Assembly (NCBI GenBank): GCA_947629625.1
Contig: CANRES010000007.1
Coordinates: 1-32,166 of the forward strand
From: an uncultured Clostridia bacterium
GTDB lineage: Bacteria > Bacillota > Clostridia > TANB77 > CAG-508
Reading direction: 5' to 3'
DNA length: 32,166 bases
Shown piece after piece: positions 13,207 through 25,300 of this stretch. The position numbers and the translations under genes are program-made. Position 1 is the stretch's first letter; each line of letters begins with the position of its first letter. Below the pieces are notes generated by a model. The model searched no databases. It saw only the letters and a program-made list of their open reading frames with translations, and had not been told where the DNA came from.

Positions 13207-13292
13207 GGGCAGATGGCCGAGTGGCTAAAGGCGGCAGACTGTAAATCTGTTCTCATTTGAGTACGATGGTTCGAATCCATCTCTGCCCACCA
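13207..13292 (+). tRNA. tRNA-Tyr (anticodon GTA), integration site of the island
   Basis: A class II tRNA with a long variable arm: acceptor GGGCAGA/TCTGCCC, anticodon loop CTGTAAA, encoded CCA. Its 3' 31 bases are repeated at 25153-25183, at the far end of the island. The tRNA stays complete after integration. Confidence 0.97.
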
Positions 13293-13409
13293 TAATTTTA
13301 TTAGAAATATCAAGGGTTTCAGAGTTTACAGTTTCAAAAATCCTTAAATATTTCTAAAAAATCTTTAAATGAGTAATTATCTTATTTTATTTAGATAATT
13401 GCTTTTTTT
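13262..13409. repeat. Left attachment repeat (attL) of the tRNA-Tyr island
   Basis: A 148-bp direct repeat of 25153-25300 with three mismatches (13328, 13331, 13334). It covers the tRNA 3' end and the tRNA operon terminator. It ends two bases inside the stop codon of the integrase gene. Confidence 0.92.
13372..13409 (+). terminator. tRNA operon terminator (within attL)
   Basis: AGTAATTATCT pairs with AGATAATTGCT around a short A/T loop, then seven T residues. The same hairpin is present in the right repeat (about 25263-25300). It also lies just after the integrase stop on the other strand. Confidence 0.8.
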
Positions 13410-14691
13410 ATTGATTTATTACTTTTTTAGTTGGAAAATGAATAATTTTGCCATTGTTTAAGTTTTCATCTTCTTTACTAGTAAAAGTAATATTTTCATA
13501 TTGTTTATCAACTTCATTGGTTGCTTTTCTCTTATGTTCGTTATCTGTATGAAAATATGTAGTAATTATTTGACTCCATCCTGCAAGTTCTTTAATGCTT
13601 TCTTGGTCTGTATTCGTTTCTTGTGCTAAAAATGTAAGATATTCGTGTCTTAAAGAATAAGGCCCTATATCGCTTATTTGCAATAATTTTGATAAAGACT
13701 TATACATTTTTCTTAAAGACTGTTCATAAAACAGAGTTCCTACTTTTGTATAAAAGATGAAATCTGATGGATTTGGTGTAATACCTTTATCAATATATTG
13801 TTGATATTTCATTTTAAATATATTAGATAAAAATCTTCCTAATGGCAATTCTCTCACTGCTTGGGGTGTTTTTCCACCATCTTCAACTACAATTTTTTCG
13901 CCAATTCTCTTACCGTTTTCATCGTATATATTATTTTTAACTACTGTATGTCTACTAGCCCAAAAGCTATCATTTTCAAAGTCTATATCTTGCCATTGTA
14001 GGCCACCGACTTCTTCTGGCCTTAAACCTCTGGCGTCCATAATTGCAATAGGAGCATAATATAAATTAAAAGGTTTATCTTTTATTCTATTGCTAAAATA
14101 ATCTTCTACAATTTTTTGTTCAATTTGATTACGAACTTCACGAGTTCCTTTTACTACTTTTGGCATATCTAATAATTCCAAACTTATATGTGGCATTTTA
14201 TTATCAGCCATAGCATATTTTAATGCTTGTTTTAGTGGTGCAAATACTTCCTTTACTGTTTTACCTTTAAGTGTCTGTAATACACCATTTTTTTCAATTT
14301 TTTTTGACTTTACCTTATTTATTGCTTTTTGTATTTTGTCTATTGTTAAATCTTTTAATTTTACAGAACCAATTAAAGGGTATATATGATTTTGAAAATA
14401 GGAATAATAACTATCTTTGGTGTTTCCCTTTAAATTAGTTTTTACATCTTTAAGCCAATGTACACACCAGCTTTTTACTGTATAACTTTTAGATTTTATT
14501 TGTTTTCCTTGTTTACAAATATCAGCATATTTGTTCTGTAAAGTCTTTCTTGATTCTTCTTCTGTTTTTCCAGTTGAAGATAACTGTTTTCTTGTTCCAT
14601 TTGGCATATCAAAATATGCTCTACAAGTAACTGTTCCACTTTTGTTATATCTATAAGTGTAACCTTTATTTTTCCCTTTTTTATGAGCCAT
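13408..14691 (-). CDS. int: Tyrosine recombinase, integrase of the tRNA-Tyr island
   Basis: The 427-residue integrase inserts and excises the island at tRNA-Tyr. It has an N-terminal arm-binding domain (KGYTYRYNKSGTVTCRAYFDM), a SAM-like core-binding domain (SWCVHWLKDVKTNLKGNT) and a catalytic domain. Catalytic residues seen: the first Arg in DARGLRPEEVGGLQW (about R220), SLRHEY for the second box, with Tyr in place of the first His and Trp instead of the third (LAGWS), and the nucleophile in TTYFHTD (about Y378). These substitutions are common in Tn916-like integrases. The start follows AAAGGAGG, and a TTGACA-17-TAAACT promoter lies upstream. No excisionase gene is visible. Confidence 0.95.
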   Translation of the reverse strand: MAHKKGKNKGYTYRYNKSGTVTCRAYFDMPNGTRKQLSSTGKTEEESRKTLQNKYADICKQGKQIKSKSYTVKSWCVHWLKDVKTNLKGNTKDSYYSYFQNHIYPLIGSVKLKDLTIDKIQKAINKVKSKKIEKNGVLQTLKGKTVKEVFAPLKQALKYAMADNKMPHISLELLDMPKVVKGTREVRNQIEQKIVEDYFSNRIKDKPFNLYYAPIAIMDARGLRPEEVGGLQWQDIDFENDSFWASRHTVVKNNIYDENGKRIGEKIVVEDGGKTPQAVRELPLGRFLSNIFKMKYQQYIDKGITPNPSDFIFYTKVGTLFYEQSLRKMYKSLSKLLQISDIGPYSLRHEYLTFLAQETNTDQESIKELAGWSQIITTYFHTDNEHKRKATNEVDKQYENITFTSKEDENLNNGKIIHFPTKKVINQ

Positions 14692-14781: not shown

Positions 14782-14808
14782 TACTTATATATGTTTCCTA
14801 GTAATTCT

Positions 14809-14856
14809 AATCTAAATCTAATCTAATCTAAATCTAATCTAATCTAAATCTAATCT
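14809..14856. repeat. Three tandem copies of a 16-bp repeat, iteron-like
   Basis: AATCTAAATCTAATCT occurs three times without mismatch, directly between the replication gene and the integrase gene. It runs into the last codons and stop of the replication gene. It could bind the replication protein or integrase, or be a product of slippage. Confidence 0.85.
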
Positions 14857-16028
14857 AATTTTAAACAATATTCATCAAAAGTATGATGTTTTAATTCTTC
14901 GTGTTCTCCGTCATATATTGTAAAATCCCTGCATACTTCTTTTGTTGTAAAATTAGGTAAAAATGCAATGTCTATATCTTCATCAAATGTTAAGGGATTA
15001 ATTCCTATACTTCTTAGAAGTTTTATATGGTTTTCAAAAGTATCATCCGAATATTTATATTCTTCTTTTGCTTTTGTAAAGCCTTTTTTATTAATGTCTA
15101 CAACTAAGTTGGATAACTTTTCCGCTTCTTTTTCATTTAATCTTCTATCACTGTTAATTGCTAGTAAAGCATAATCCAAACGATAAAAAGGTTCTGCATA
15201 GAATATAGGTTCTACATAACGTCTAAAACACTCATCTATAATTTTTTCATTGAAGTAGTTATCTAGTGTTTTATCAATTATAAATGTATTGCGTGTATTA
15301 TAATATAAACGTTTATTTTTAAGCCTTAATTCTATTCTGAAAACATCTTCATATTGTGCTATTTCTATGTCTATTTGTTGTGTTTTCTTTTTGTTTCTTA
15401 ATTTTGACTTACGTTCTTCATATTTGTCATACACAATCACTTCTATATAAGCATTTCGTGGTTTAAATTTTATGCCATTGCCTTTTTTTAGTTCTTCTTT
15501 AATAACACCATTATAAGAATCTCTACATATTCTTAAAATACATCTAAGAGCTCTACTTTCTTGTAATGGGTTATTCTCAAACACAAAATCGTGTTTAAAG
15601 TCTATTCTATTAAGTTTACCTTTTTCTAGAAAATCTATGTTAATTCCTATGCTTTCCAACAATTCTAACGTATTTTGATATATTTCATCATCAGTCTTGT
15701 CTTTTATTGCATTATGGCTTATAAATATAAAAACATAGTCATCTCTATACTTACGATGACAATAATTTAAGCTATAATCACCATATTTTCCTGAATATGG
15801 ATATTTTTTCTTAAAAAATATATCATAACCTTTATAATAGAAATGTAAAGCATTTTTACCTTTAAAACAAATTTTTGTTTTAATTTTAGGTTTTCTTAAC
15901 GTTTTACATTTCCATTTTTTTCGAACACGATAAACAACACCATTTTTGAAATCATTAAACATTTCTTCTTTATTTGATGTCTTAACTTTAAATTGCATTG
16001 TTAAAGTGTCAACATAATCTGCTACCAT
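14850..16028 (-). CDS. rep: Phage/plasmid replication initiator, gene II/X family
   Basis: The 392-residue product matches the layout of filamentous-phage gpII-type rolling-circle initiators, which nick the double-stranded origin. Seen in order: KLNRIDFKHDFVFEN (compare SRIDATFS in M13 gpII), AYIEVIVYDKYEER, VFRIELRLKNKRLYY (compare RFEARIETRYL) and a C-terminal FTKAKEEYKYSDDTFENHI. The alignment is by eye. The start follows AGGAGGTGAAACA. It has a long leader from a promoter at 16455-16483, crossed by an antisense RNA and a terminator, which suggests copy control. It lies upstream of int on the same strand. Confidence 0.75.
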   Translation of the reverse strand: MVADYVDTLTMQFKVKTSNKEEMFNDFKNGVVYRVRKKWKCKTLRKPKIKTKICFKGKNALHFYYKGYDIFFKKKYPYSGKYGDYSLNYCHRKYRDDYVFIFISHNAIKDKTDDEIYQNTLELLESIGINIDFLEKGKLNRIDFKHDFVFENNPLQESRALRCILRICRDSYNGVIKEELKKGNGIKFKPRNAYIEVIVYDKYEERKSKLRNKKKTQQIDIEIAQYEDVFRIELRLKNKRLYYNTRNTFIIDKTLDNYFNEKIIDECFRRYVEPIFYAEPFYRLDYALLAINSDRRLNEKEAEKLSNLVVDINKKGFTKAKEEYKYSDDTFENHIKLLRSIGINPLTFDEDIDIAFLPNFTTKEVCRDFTIYDGEHEELKHHTFDEYCLKLD

Positions 16029-16258
16029 TGTTTCACCTCCTATTCTAAAATAAATTATAAATTTTTCATTATCACCCCCATAGTATTGATTTATTACAAA
16101 TTATAGTTTTAGCATTGCCATTGTAGTAAAATAATACAATGTAAGTTAGCAAGGCAAACGCAATAAAACTTTTTTCGGTAATCTATCCTATACCTATACT
16201 TATATGTAAATATTTTTTTAAAGGGTGGAAAATTTAAAAATTTTAGAAAAAAAGATGC

Positions 16259-16292
16259 AAAAATAGAGCATAGATAAATACACTATGCTCTA
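16259..16292 (-). terminator. Terminator/attenuator in the rep leader
   Basis: On the minus strand a perfect 10-bp stem (16283-16292 with 16264-16273) with a 9-nt loop is followed by TTTTTGC and later a second T run. It sits about 155 nt inside the rep leader, well before the rep start, so it would end rep transcription early unless prevented from folding. Confidence 0.75.
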
Positions 16293-16334
16293 AACTCTAT
16301 AATTATAATATCAAACATATTTCTACAAAAAATA

Positions 16335-16363
16335 TTGACATTTTATTTTTTATATGTTATAAT
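16335..16363 (+). promoter_or_regulatory. Promoter of the antisense RNA
   Basis: A consensus promoter, TTGACA (16335-16340), 17 bp, TATAAT (16358-16363), faces against the rep promoter. Confidence 0.8.
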
Positions 16364-16369
16364 ATTATT

Positions 16370-16441
16370 TAGAAAACATATAGAAGTGTGCATCGCATAT
16401 TTCTAAAATTTTAAGAAGTAGTTGGTGTCTACTTCTTTTTT
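16370..16441 (+). ncRNA. Antisense RNA against the rep leader (ctRNA-like)
   Basis: The predicted transcript of about 71 nt runs from the promoter at 16335-16363 to a terminator (stem 16414-16421 with 16429-16436, then seven T residues). It has no plausible reading frame and is fully complementary to the first part of the rep mRNA leader, whose start is predicted near 16448. The terminator loop TTGGTGT holds a YUNR U-turn motif, common in plasmid copy-control RNAs. The role is inferred from this arrangement. Confidence 0.65.
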
Positions 16442-16454
16442 CAAACCTATAAAT

Positions 16455-16483
16455 ATTATATCAAATTTATGCTTGTTTGTCAA
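16455..16483 (-). promoter_or_regulatory. rep promoter
   Basis: On the minus strand, TTGACA (16478-16483), 17 bp, TATAAT (16455-16460), giving a leader of about 420 nt before rep. The -35 region and its upstream flank are shared with the methyltransferase promoter at 17654-17696. Confidence 0.8.
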
Positions 16484-16562
16484 GTTAGGTGGAAATCTTA
16501 CTCTCACAATACATACAAGCATTATTTTGCTTTATATAAGAGTGTACCACCCCAAAAGCACT

Positions 16563-16750: not shown

Positions 16751-17511
16751 CTATATTTCTTTTATTCTTTCTACTGCTACGCCATAATATCTTTCATCCA
16801 CTTCACATCCAATAAATTTACGACCAGTTTTTAAACAAGCTATTCCGTGTGCTACCACTCCCCATAAAACAATCCAAAACTATGTCATTTTTATTACTGC
16901 TATTTTCAACTAACTCTTTCATAAGGTTAATTGGTTTCTGTGTAGGGTGAAATTTGTGTTTTACATTATTTATTTGAAAAAAGTTAGAAGTTCCGCAGTT
17001 ATTGATTAGTTTTGCTCCACCGCTTCCTAAATAACAATATAAACTCACATTGTCCGCATATAGTAACCATTTACAACTTTATTATCTTTTGCCCAAACGA
17101 GAACATTTTGTAGCTTAAAACCAACTTTTTCTGTTTCGGTTATAATTTTACTTAGATTACTCCAATTACTAAATAAATAACAATGACTTTTTTCTTTTAA
17201 AATTCTATATACTTCTCCAATATATTCTGTAATATTTATATCATTATATTCAAAAATTTTGCCGATTTTTTATATTATTCTTGTTTTGTTCAGTATTTTC
17301 AAAGTAATTAAACATTCCTCCCATATATTTTTTCCCGTTCTTTCTTTTTTCCACCACCTGTATGTGATATGCGATAAGGAATATCAGAGCAAAATAAATC
17401 AATGCTCTCATCTTTTATATTTTTCAATAATTCTCTACAATCACAATTAAATAGCATATAATTGCTATTTGAACAATTTGGAGTTATACCTCCTGCTAAA
17501 AAAATATCCAT
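16751..17511 (-). pseudogene. DNA adenine/cytosine-N4 methyltransferase with five frameshifts
   Basis: The family transfers a methyl group from S-adenosylmethionine to an amino group of A or C. The frame opens at ATG 17511 behind AAAAGGAGA. The catalytic motif is SDIPY (DPPY class) in DLFCSDIPYRISHTGGG; later come KFHPTQKPINLMK and the cofactor loop VLDCFMGSGST. The frame is broken five times, at plus-strand positions 17337, 17264, 17056, 17022 and 16847. Each break is one extra C before GG on the coding strand. Removing them gives 756 bases, a 251-residue protein of normal length with MGGMFNYFENTEQN, GQCEFILLFRKGGAK and an end at VERIKEI. No restriction endonuclease gene is adjacent, so it would be an orphan methyltransferase. 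Confidence 0.85.
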
Positions 17512-17653: not shown

Positions 17654-17696
17654 ATTATACCATACAAAACATACGTTTGTCAAGTTAGGTAGAAAT
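17654..17696 (-). promoter_or_regulatory. Methyltransferase promoter with the shared upstream box
   Basis: On the minus strand, TTGACA (17678-17683), 18 bp, TATAAT (17654-17659). The -35 and flank GTCAAGTTAGGT recur at the rep promoter; 22 bp match with one difference (17675-17696 against 16475-16496). A leader of about 140 bases precedes the gene, with a GTTGC...GCAAC inverted repeat. Confidence 0.65.
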
Positions 17697-17766: not shown

Positions 17767-17817
17767 TTGACAAAACAGGTATCACGTAGTATAATAAATA
17801 TAGTAAACAGGTATCAC
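17767..17817 (+). promoter_or_regulatory. Promoter with two 13-bp operator repeats
   Basis: TTGACA (17767-17772), 17 bp, TATAAT (17790-17795). AAACAGGTATCAC fills most of the spacer (17773-17785) and recurs exactly at 17805-17817, 32 bp on, about three helix turns. A protein bound to both would block the polymerase. The obvious candidate is the AbrB-like product of the gene driven by this promoter. Confidence 0.75.
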
Positions 17818-17877
17818 ATTTATATAAATTTAATAACTTGTTTTTACTAATATAAAATATTTTGGAGGTGATAAATT

Positions 17878-18045
17878 ATGGCGCGATTGACAGAAGTTAT
17901 GGATTATAGAAACAACGGTGTGTTTGTAAAAGGTTATCGAATAGCCCTGCGTAAAAAAGGAATTGAAACAACAGGATTTACAAAAGAATCAGATTTAAAG
18001 ATTACCTATAAACAAGGTAAAATCATTATTGAAGAAAATAAATAA
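17878..18045 (+). CDS. Small AbrB/SymE-like DNA-binding protein
   Basis: ATG 17878 follows TTGGAGGTGATAAATT, an excellent ribosome site. The 55-residue product contains FVKGYRIALRKKGIETTGF and ends with LKITYKQGKIIIEENK, the beta-strand-loop-beta pattern of AbrB/MazE-type swapped-hairpin domains and of SymE. Such proteins are transition regulators, antitoxins or toxins. It has its own promoter with a duplicated operator, which suits autorepression. No partner toxin gene is next to it: the following gene is much larger and has a long structured gap before it. The family assignment is by pattern only. Confidence 0.6.
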   Translation: MARLTEVMDYRNNGVFVKGYRIALRKKGIETTGFTKESDLKITYKQGKIIIEENK

Positions 18046-25152: not shown

Positions 25153-25300
25153 TACGATGGTTCGAATCCATCTCTGCCCACCATAATTTTATTAGAAATA
25201 TCAAGGGTTTCAGAGTTTCCATTTCCAAAAATCCTTAAATATTTCTAAAAAATCTTTAAATGAGTAATTATCTTATTTTATTTAGATAATTGCTTTTTTT
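25153..25300. repeat. Right attachment repeat (attR) of the tRNA-Tyr island
   Basis: A second copy of 13262-13409: the last 31 bases of tRNA-Tyr, the downstream stretch and the terminator, with three differences. The tRNA 5' part is absent here, so this is not a gene. Confidence 0.92.

Follow-up and report, generated by a model that had tools for sequence, protein, structure and literature searches.

Putative antisense-driven attenuation of rep in an integrated tRNA-Tyr-borne element of an uncultured Clostridia bacterium

The window (the whole analyzed stretch of 32,166 nucleotides, contig CANRES010000007.1) carries an element of about 12 kb that is inserted at tRNA-Tyr (13207-13292) between 148-bp direct repeats. 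The left repeat, attL (13262-13409), overlaps the 3' end of the tRNA gene and is identical at 145 of 148 positions to the right one, attR (25153-25300). The element encodes a tyrosine integrase (13408-14691, minus strand; PF00589, 3.2e-14), Rep, a broken N6/N4 DNA methyltransferase, a serine resolvase, and several unknown ORFs; the integrase adjoining tRNA-Tyr, together with the flanking repeats, supports the integrated setting claimed in a preliminary description of this DNA. The methyltransferase gene (16818-17511, minus strand) is split into at least two fragments. A 55-aa ORF at 17878 (region 17767-18045) resembles SymE weakly (E 0.0034, below the cut-off); its own promoter is perfect, and a facing promoter of 11/12 lies at a distance of 164 bp, an arrangement like that of symE/symR. 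SymE/SymR-like control was rejected on the absence of the facing promoter in L084 and L087. A near-identical stretch (99.7% over 7.1 kb, with the same 251-nt leader) comes from a different genus, in a genome recorded as the Clostridia MAG 'Lapin-016' (L002; G099:C62), which points to a recent transfer or to bins that share a contig. A search of 195 genomes with the leader DNA retrieved the identical copy and otherwise mostly AT-rich promoter look-alikes.

The rep gene (14850-16028, minus strand) encodes a gene II-like initiator of 392 aa that matches phrog_702 'replication protein' (1.2e-7). Its score against PF05144 (14 bits) lies below the cut-off of 21.7 bits, which is passed by the Rep of the related locus L026 (25.9 bits), 58% identical to the window Rep; through this relative the gene II-like assignment proposed earlier is supported. 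No Rep_trans domain was matched in the window Rep, and its hhalign alignment with RepC of pT181 is short and weak, covering 34 columns only. Judged by sequence, the protein appears to belong with the PF05144-type proteins and not with the RepR-type theta initiators. No relatives of it were found in plasmid and phage collections or among viral contigs, the latter also giving no match to the leader patterns, and a profile search against solved structures returned nothing. A single-sequence structure prediction (pLDDT 35.9) was too poor for use. Directly downstream of rep, about three and a half iteron-like repeats of 16 bp (TCTAATCTAAATCTAA) occupy positions 14806-14859.

Upstream of rep lies a leader of 420 nt (16029-16448, minus strand), alignable with those of six other loci (L066, L102, L025, L057, L060, and L026). 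Its promoter, P-rep (16483-16455, minus strand), is a TTGACA-17-TATAAT sequence with TG before the -10 box, matches the consensus at 12 of 12 positions, is kept in all seven homologous leaders, and places the predicted start of the rep mRNA near 16448. From 16259 to the start of rep (16028), the promoter scan found no minus-strand promoter with at least 10/12 matches. The opposite strand bears a second promoter of the same quality (16335-16363, plus strand; TTGACA-17-TATAAT, TG before the -10 box, 12/12), with a predicted RNA start near 16370. Both promoters, and an mRNA start near 16448, had been proposed in the preliminary description, and the promoters are confirmed. The two are convergent and 149 bp apart. 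The whole window holds 14 sigma-70 promoter matches of at least 11/12 and two facing pairs formed by such matches 80-300 bp apart; P-rep and the antisense promoter are the sole pair in which both members reach 12/12.

The -35 box of P-rep is overlain by an operator-like motif, ACCTAACTTGACAAAC (16475-16490, minus strand), with a second exact copy at 17675-17690, where 0.01 matches would be expected; taken as 22 bp, the repeat spans 16475-16496 and 17675-17696 (minus strand). The second copy covers the -35 box of a promoter that precedes the broken methyltransferase gene. The core of the motif is present at P-rep in 7/7 homologous leaders, and the copy about 1.2 kb upstream also occurs in L083 and L085. 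By analogy with the site of CopR in pIP501, a shared repressor site is a reasonable guess.

The antisense promoter is predicted to produce an RNA of 72 nt (16370-16441, plus strand) that forms two hairpins (-21.1 kcal/mol for 16370-16442 as folded) and is fully complementary, over its 72 nt, to the start of the rep leader. An antisense RNA had been described with these ends and a length of about 71 nt; the promoter, the terminator, and the complementarity agree with it, and the ends themselves give 72 nt. The RNA ends in a terminator hairpin (16413-16441, plus strand) with a 9-bp stem (16413-16421/16429-16437), the loop UUGGUGU, and a T-run to 16441. This loop is likely the recognition loop. 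The U-turn motif previously noted in it carries little evidential weight, since by our own estimate roughly 40% of 7-nt loops carry a YUNR U-turn on either strand by chance. An Rfam search recovered only tRNAs and no antisense or leader family at the gathering threshold; matches at lax thresholds were rejected as chance hits.

Further down the leader, a second intrinsic terminator (16292-16259, minus strand) is formed by a stem (16291-16283/16273-16265) of the sequence TAGAGCATAG-loop-CTATGCTCTA, followed by TTTTT to 16259. Its existence ahead of rep had been claimed before and was recovered by folding: a simple terminator scan missed both the antisense and the leader terminator, and a fold-based scan detects both. 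From its end to the start of rep there are about 230 nt.

Folding of the leader as a growing transcript predicts an antiterminator/terminator switch. In the window, leader nt 44-74 (16405-16375, minus strand), within the segment covered by the antisense RNA, are predicted to pair with nt 145-178 (16304-16271). The same behavior was seen in 5/5 leaders folded in this way (window, L066, L025, L057, and L060): in transcripts that end just short of the terminator's 3' arm, the antisense-target region in the 5' leader is paired with the 5' arm, and the completed terminator then displaces the antiterminator. When nt 1-79 of the window leader are blocked, mimicking bound antisense RNA, only the terminator remains. 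The preliminary description had named a leader unable to form an alternative antiterminator as evidence against its reading; as one can form in the predicted folds, this objection does not apply. The antiterminator duplex is stronger than at least 99.4% of shuffles in L025, L057, and L060 (p 0.004-0.006); in the window and L066 it beats only about 86% of shuffles of the target (window p about 0.14), and an energy-gain test of the window antiterminator against local shuffles gave no significance. Ranked by pairing with the RNA 75-120 nt upstream, the five rep attenuators take places 2, 3, 5, 7, and 8 among 40 terminator-like hairpins that serve as background, drawn from the window and five related loci. 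In every leader folded, the antiterminator is less stable than the complete terminator, and read-through into rep, the ON state, would therefore have to be kinetic, i.e., dependent on timing. No change is seen in the main antiterminator helix among the window, L066, and L102, for which reason covariation speaks neither for nor against it; part of the outer helix is missing.

The weightiest evidence comes from related loci. The leader terminator is retained in six of seven: it is nearly identical in L066 and L102, and a different but equivalent hairpin is present in L025, L057, and L060, with one compensatory pair kept in L060. L026 has the facing promoters and the antisense terminator, and no leader terminator was found in it by the fold-based scan. 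Within the alignment, two pairs of the antisense-terminator stem show compensatory changes, and 96% of its cells are paired; the second hairpin has little support (39% paired when counted along the sense strand). The leaders of the window and L066 are 88% identical, and yet the 7-nt loop differs at all seven positions while the stem is unchanged. Such hypervariability of a loop within an unchanged stem would be expected where an antisense RNA is recognized. The loop of L102, TTGGTAG, is the exact reverse complement of that of L026, CTACCAA, as from a flipped hairpin, and such a flip would change specificity: if this is true, the antisense RNA stays matched to its own leader and is separated from its relatives. 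In chimeras of the pT181 system, loop changes alone were not always enough for orthogonality (PMC3753616).

Despite the 88% identity of their leaders, the Reps of the window and L066 share only 32% identity, and the similarity of the two loci ends after the terminator. In L102 (G595:C53), a leader of the L066 type precedes a rep of the window type that is split between two frames. Leaders are evidently exchanged between Reps only 32% identical, as these alignments indicate. A conserved non-coding element in the interval between attenuator and rep (16093-16199, minus strand) aligns with L025 and L060, partly with L026 and L102, and not with L066. It tracks the Rep type rather than the leader type, as would suit an origin, and is a candidate replication origin. 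The same element contains a hairpin with the loop TTATTTTAC, a candidate nick site or origin.

The arrangement recurs at other Rep loci. Rep homologs were detected by Rep profiles in about 7-8% of the genomes sampled from the order and family, and a facing promoter pair lies upstream of rep in 10 of the 35 loci scanned: L003 (the window's own type), L025, L057 (a near-duplicate of L025), L060, L026, L066, L019, L029, L061, and L032. The 12 loci with the best Rep E-values include nine with the pair; at that threshold L030, L031, and L062 have none. Dinucleotide shuffles give a pair by chance in 1-5% of cases per locus, and it was seen in 1/71 coding controls. Nine of the ten loci have the two promoters 146-153 bp apart; in L032 the spacing is 169 bp. 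Loci L019, L029, L061, and L032 have the promoter geometry in common with the window, but not the leader sequence. The first three of these represent a second leader type in which the stretch covered by antisense RNA contains a T-run; in L019 and L029, a small ORF separates the leader from rep.

The promoters, terminators, complementarity, conservation, and element ends can be seen in the sequence, and the switch is a folding prediction; the transcripts, the kinetics, and the role in copy number are what we infer. The region is quite probably a replication-control module of the integrated tRNA-Tyr-borne element, in which antisense-driven attenuation of rep limits copy number. Transcription of rep would start near 16448 and proceed through the 420-nt leader, to the first part of which a constitutive 72-nt antisense RNA (from 16370) would bind, contact probably beginning at the hypervariable hairpin loop. 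When the antisense RNA is scarce, leader nt 44-74 would capture the emerging 5' arm of the terminator and the polymerase would read on into rep; when it is bound, this segment would be sequestered, the terminator would form, and the rep mRNA would end near 16259. The level of the antisense RNA would rise with the number of element copies, and Rep and copy number would therefore be held down.

Alternatively, the facing promoters could act mainly by transcriptional interference, through polymerase collision or promoter occlusion, with the leader terminator as a constitutive damper on rep and an antisense RNA that does little in trans. Such interference is known between the sense and antisense promoters of pIP501 (PMC4981023), and the strength of the two promoters 149 bp apart, the retention of this spacing where the leader is a different one (L019, L029, and L061), and the existence of L026 without a leader terminator are all compatible with it. 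However, interference would not call for an antisense RNA that is structured and terminated, for stem covariation, for a hypervariable loop, or for the pairing of the antisense target with the terminator arm, and it is considered unlikely. Still more doubtful is post-transcriptional action of the antisense RNA, through RNase III cleavage or a leader structure that affects mRNA stability or translation, with the terminator in a secondary role. The 72 nt of perfect complementarity and the action of antisense RNAs at the translation step in other replicons (PMC5703833) fit this explanation, which would serve equally for L026 with its lack of a leader terminator; nevertheless, about 340 nt separate the end of the antisense target from the start of rep, which makes direct occlusion of the ribosome site impossible, and the terminator belongs to the most highly conserved parts of the leader. 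That an AT-rich leader has produced these promoters and hairpins by chance, and that they play no regulatory role, is hardly credible: promoter-like matches are no commoner region-wide than in shuffles (34 vs 32.3) and the U-turn motif alone is weak, but the facing pair recurs with kept spacing, the stem covaries, and the leader is conserved before divergent Reps.

Antisense-driven attenuation as a means of copy control is known from autonomous plasmids; here the arrangement recurs in chromosomal elements of uncultured gut Clostridia. A literature search, itself incomplete, found no description of antisense attenuation in an integrated element. The recurrence of the arrangement in chromosomal elements suggests regulated periods as multicopy circles, and also suggests possible mutual exclusion when one cell receives two related islands. 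More tentatively, the leader might be a portable control cassette of integrated elements that passes among unrelated initiators and whose recognition type is switched by hairpin flips, so that chromosomal elements would have plasmid-like incompatibility types; this extension is possible, if rather doubtful. The constant stem with its changing loop offers naturally occurring pairs, both matched and mismatched, in which specificity could be tested.

The layout likened in the preliminary description to that of pT181 and pIP501 is present, conserved in relatives, and able to form an antiterminator in folds. In pT181 (Novick et al. 1989, reviewed in PMC5703833), repC is controlled by a countertranscript-driven attenuator and the antisense RNAI measures 87 nt. 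The window shares with it a short antisense RNA directed to the rep leader (72 nt predicted) and may also share, as folding predicts, a leader segment that pairs with the 5' arm of the terminator unless antisense RNA is bound. The pT181 terminator, however, directly precedes repC and, by prediction, contains its ribosome site, whereas here it is about 230 nt upstream; RepC is a Rep_trans protein, with which the window Rep aligns over 34 columns only; the leaders have no sequence similarity, nor is there an Rfam match; and pT181 is an autonomous plasmid, unlike the integrated element. With pIP501 (PMC4981023) the module has in common a long leader (329 bp in the plasmid, 420 nt in the window) subject to attenuation, an antisense promoter facing the rep promoter, and an operator that overlaps the rep -35 box or lies upstream of it, here represented by a candidate motif only. 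The two differ in the length of the antisense RNA (RNAIII of 136 nt vs 72 nt), in replication (theta with RepR vs a PF05144-type Rep), and in the repressor, as no CopR-like gene was identified here. The TTGGCG loops of pMU720, R1, and ColIb-P9 (PMC3753616) start with UUGG like the window loop UUGGUGU, although in these plasmids translation is regulated and the attenuator arrangement is absent. At the level of the initiator, the likeness is to PF05144 (Phage_CRI, G2P-type), with the L026 Rep above the family cut-off and the window Rep below it. The module is a member of neither the pT181 nor the pIP501 type, as its Rep family, terminator position, and sequence differ; as far as its sequence tells, it most likely works like pT181/pIP501 attenuation.
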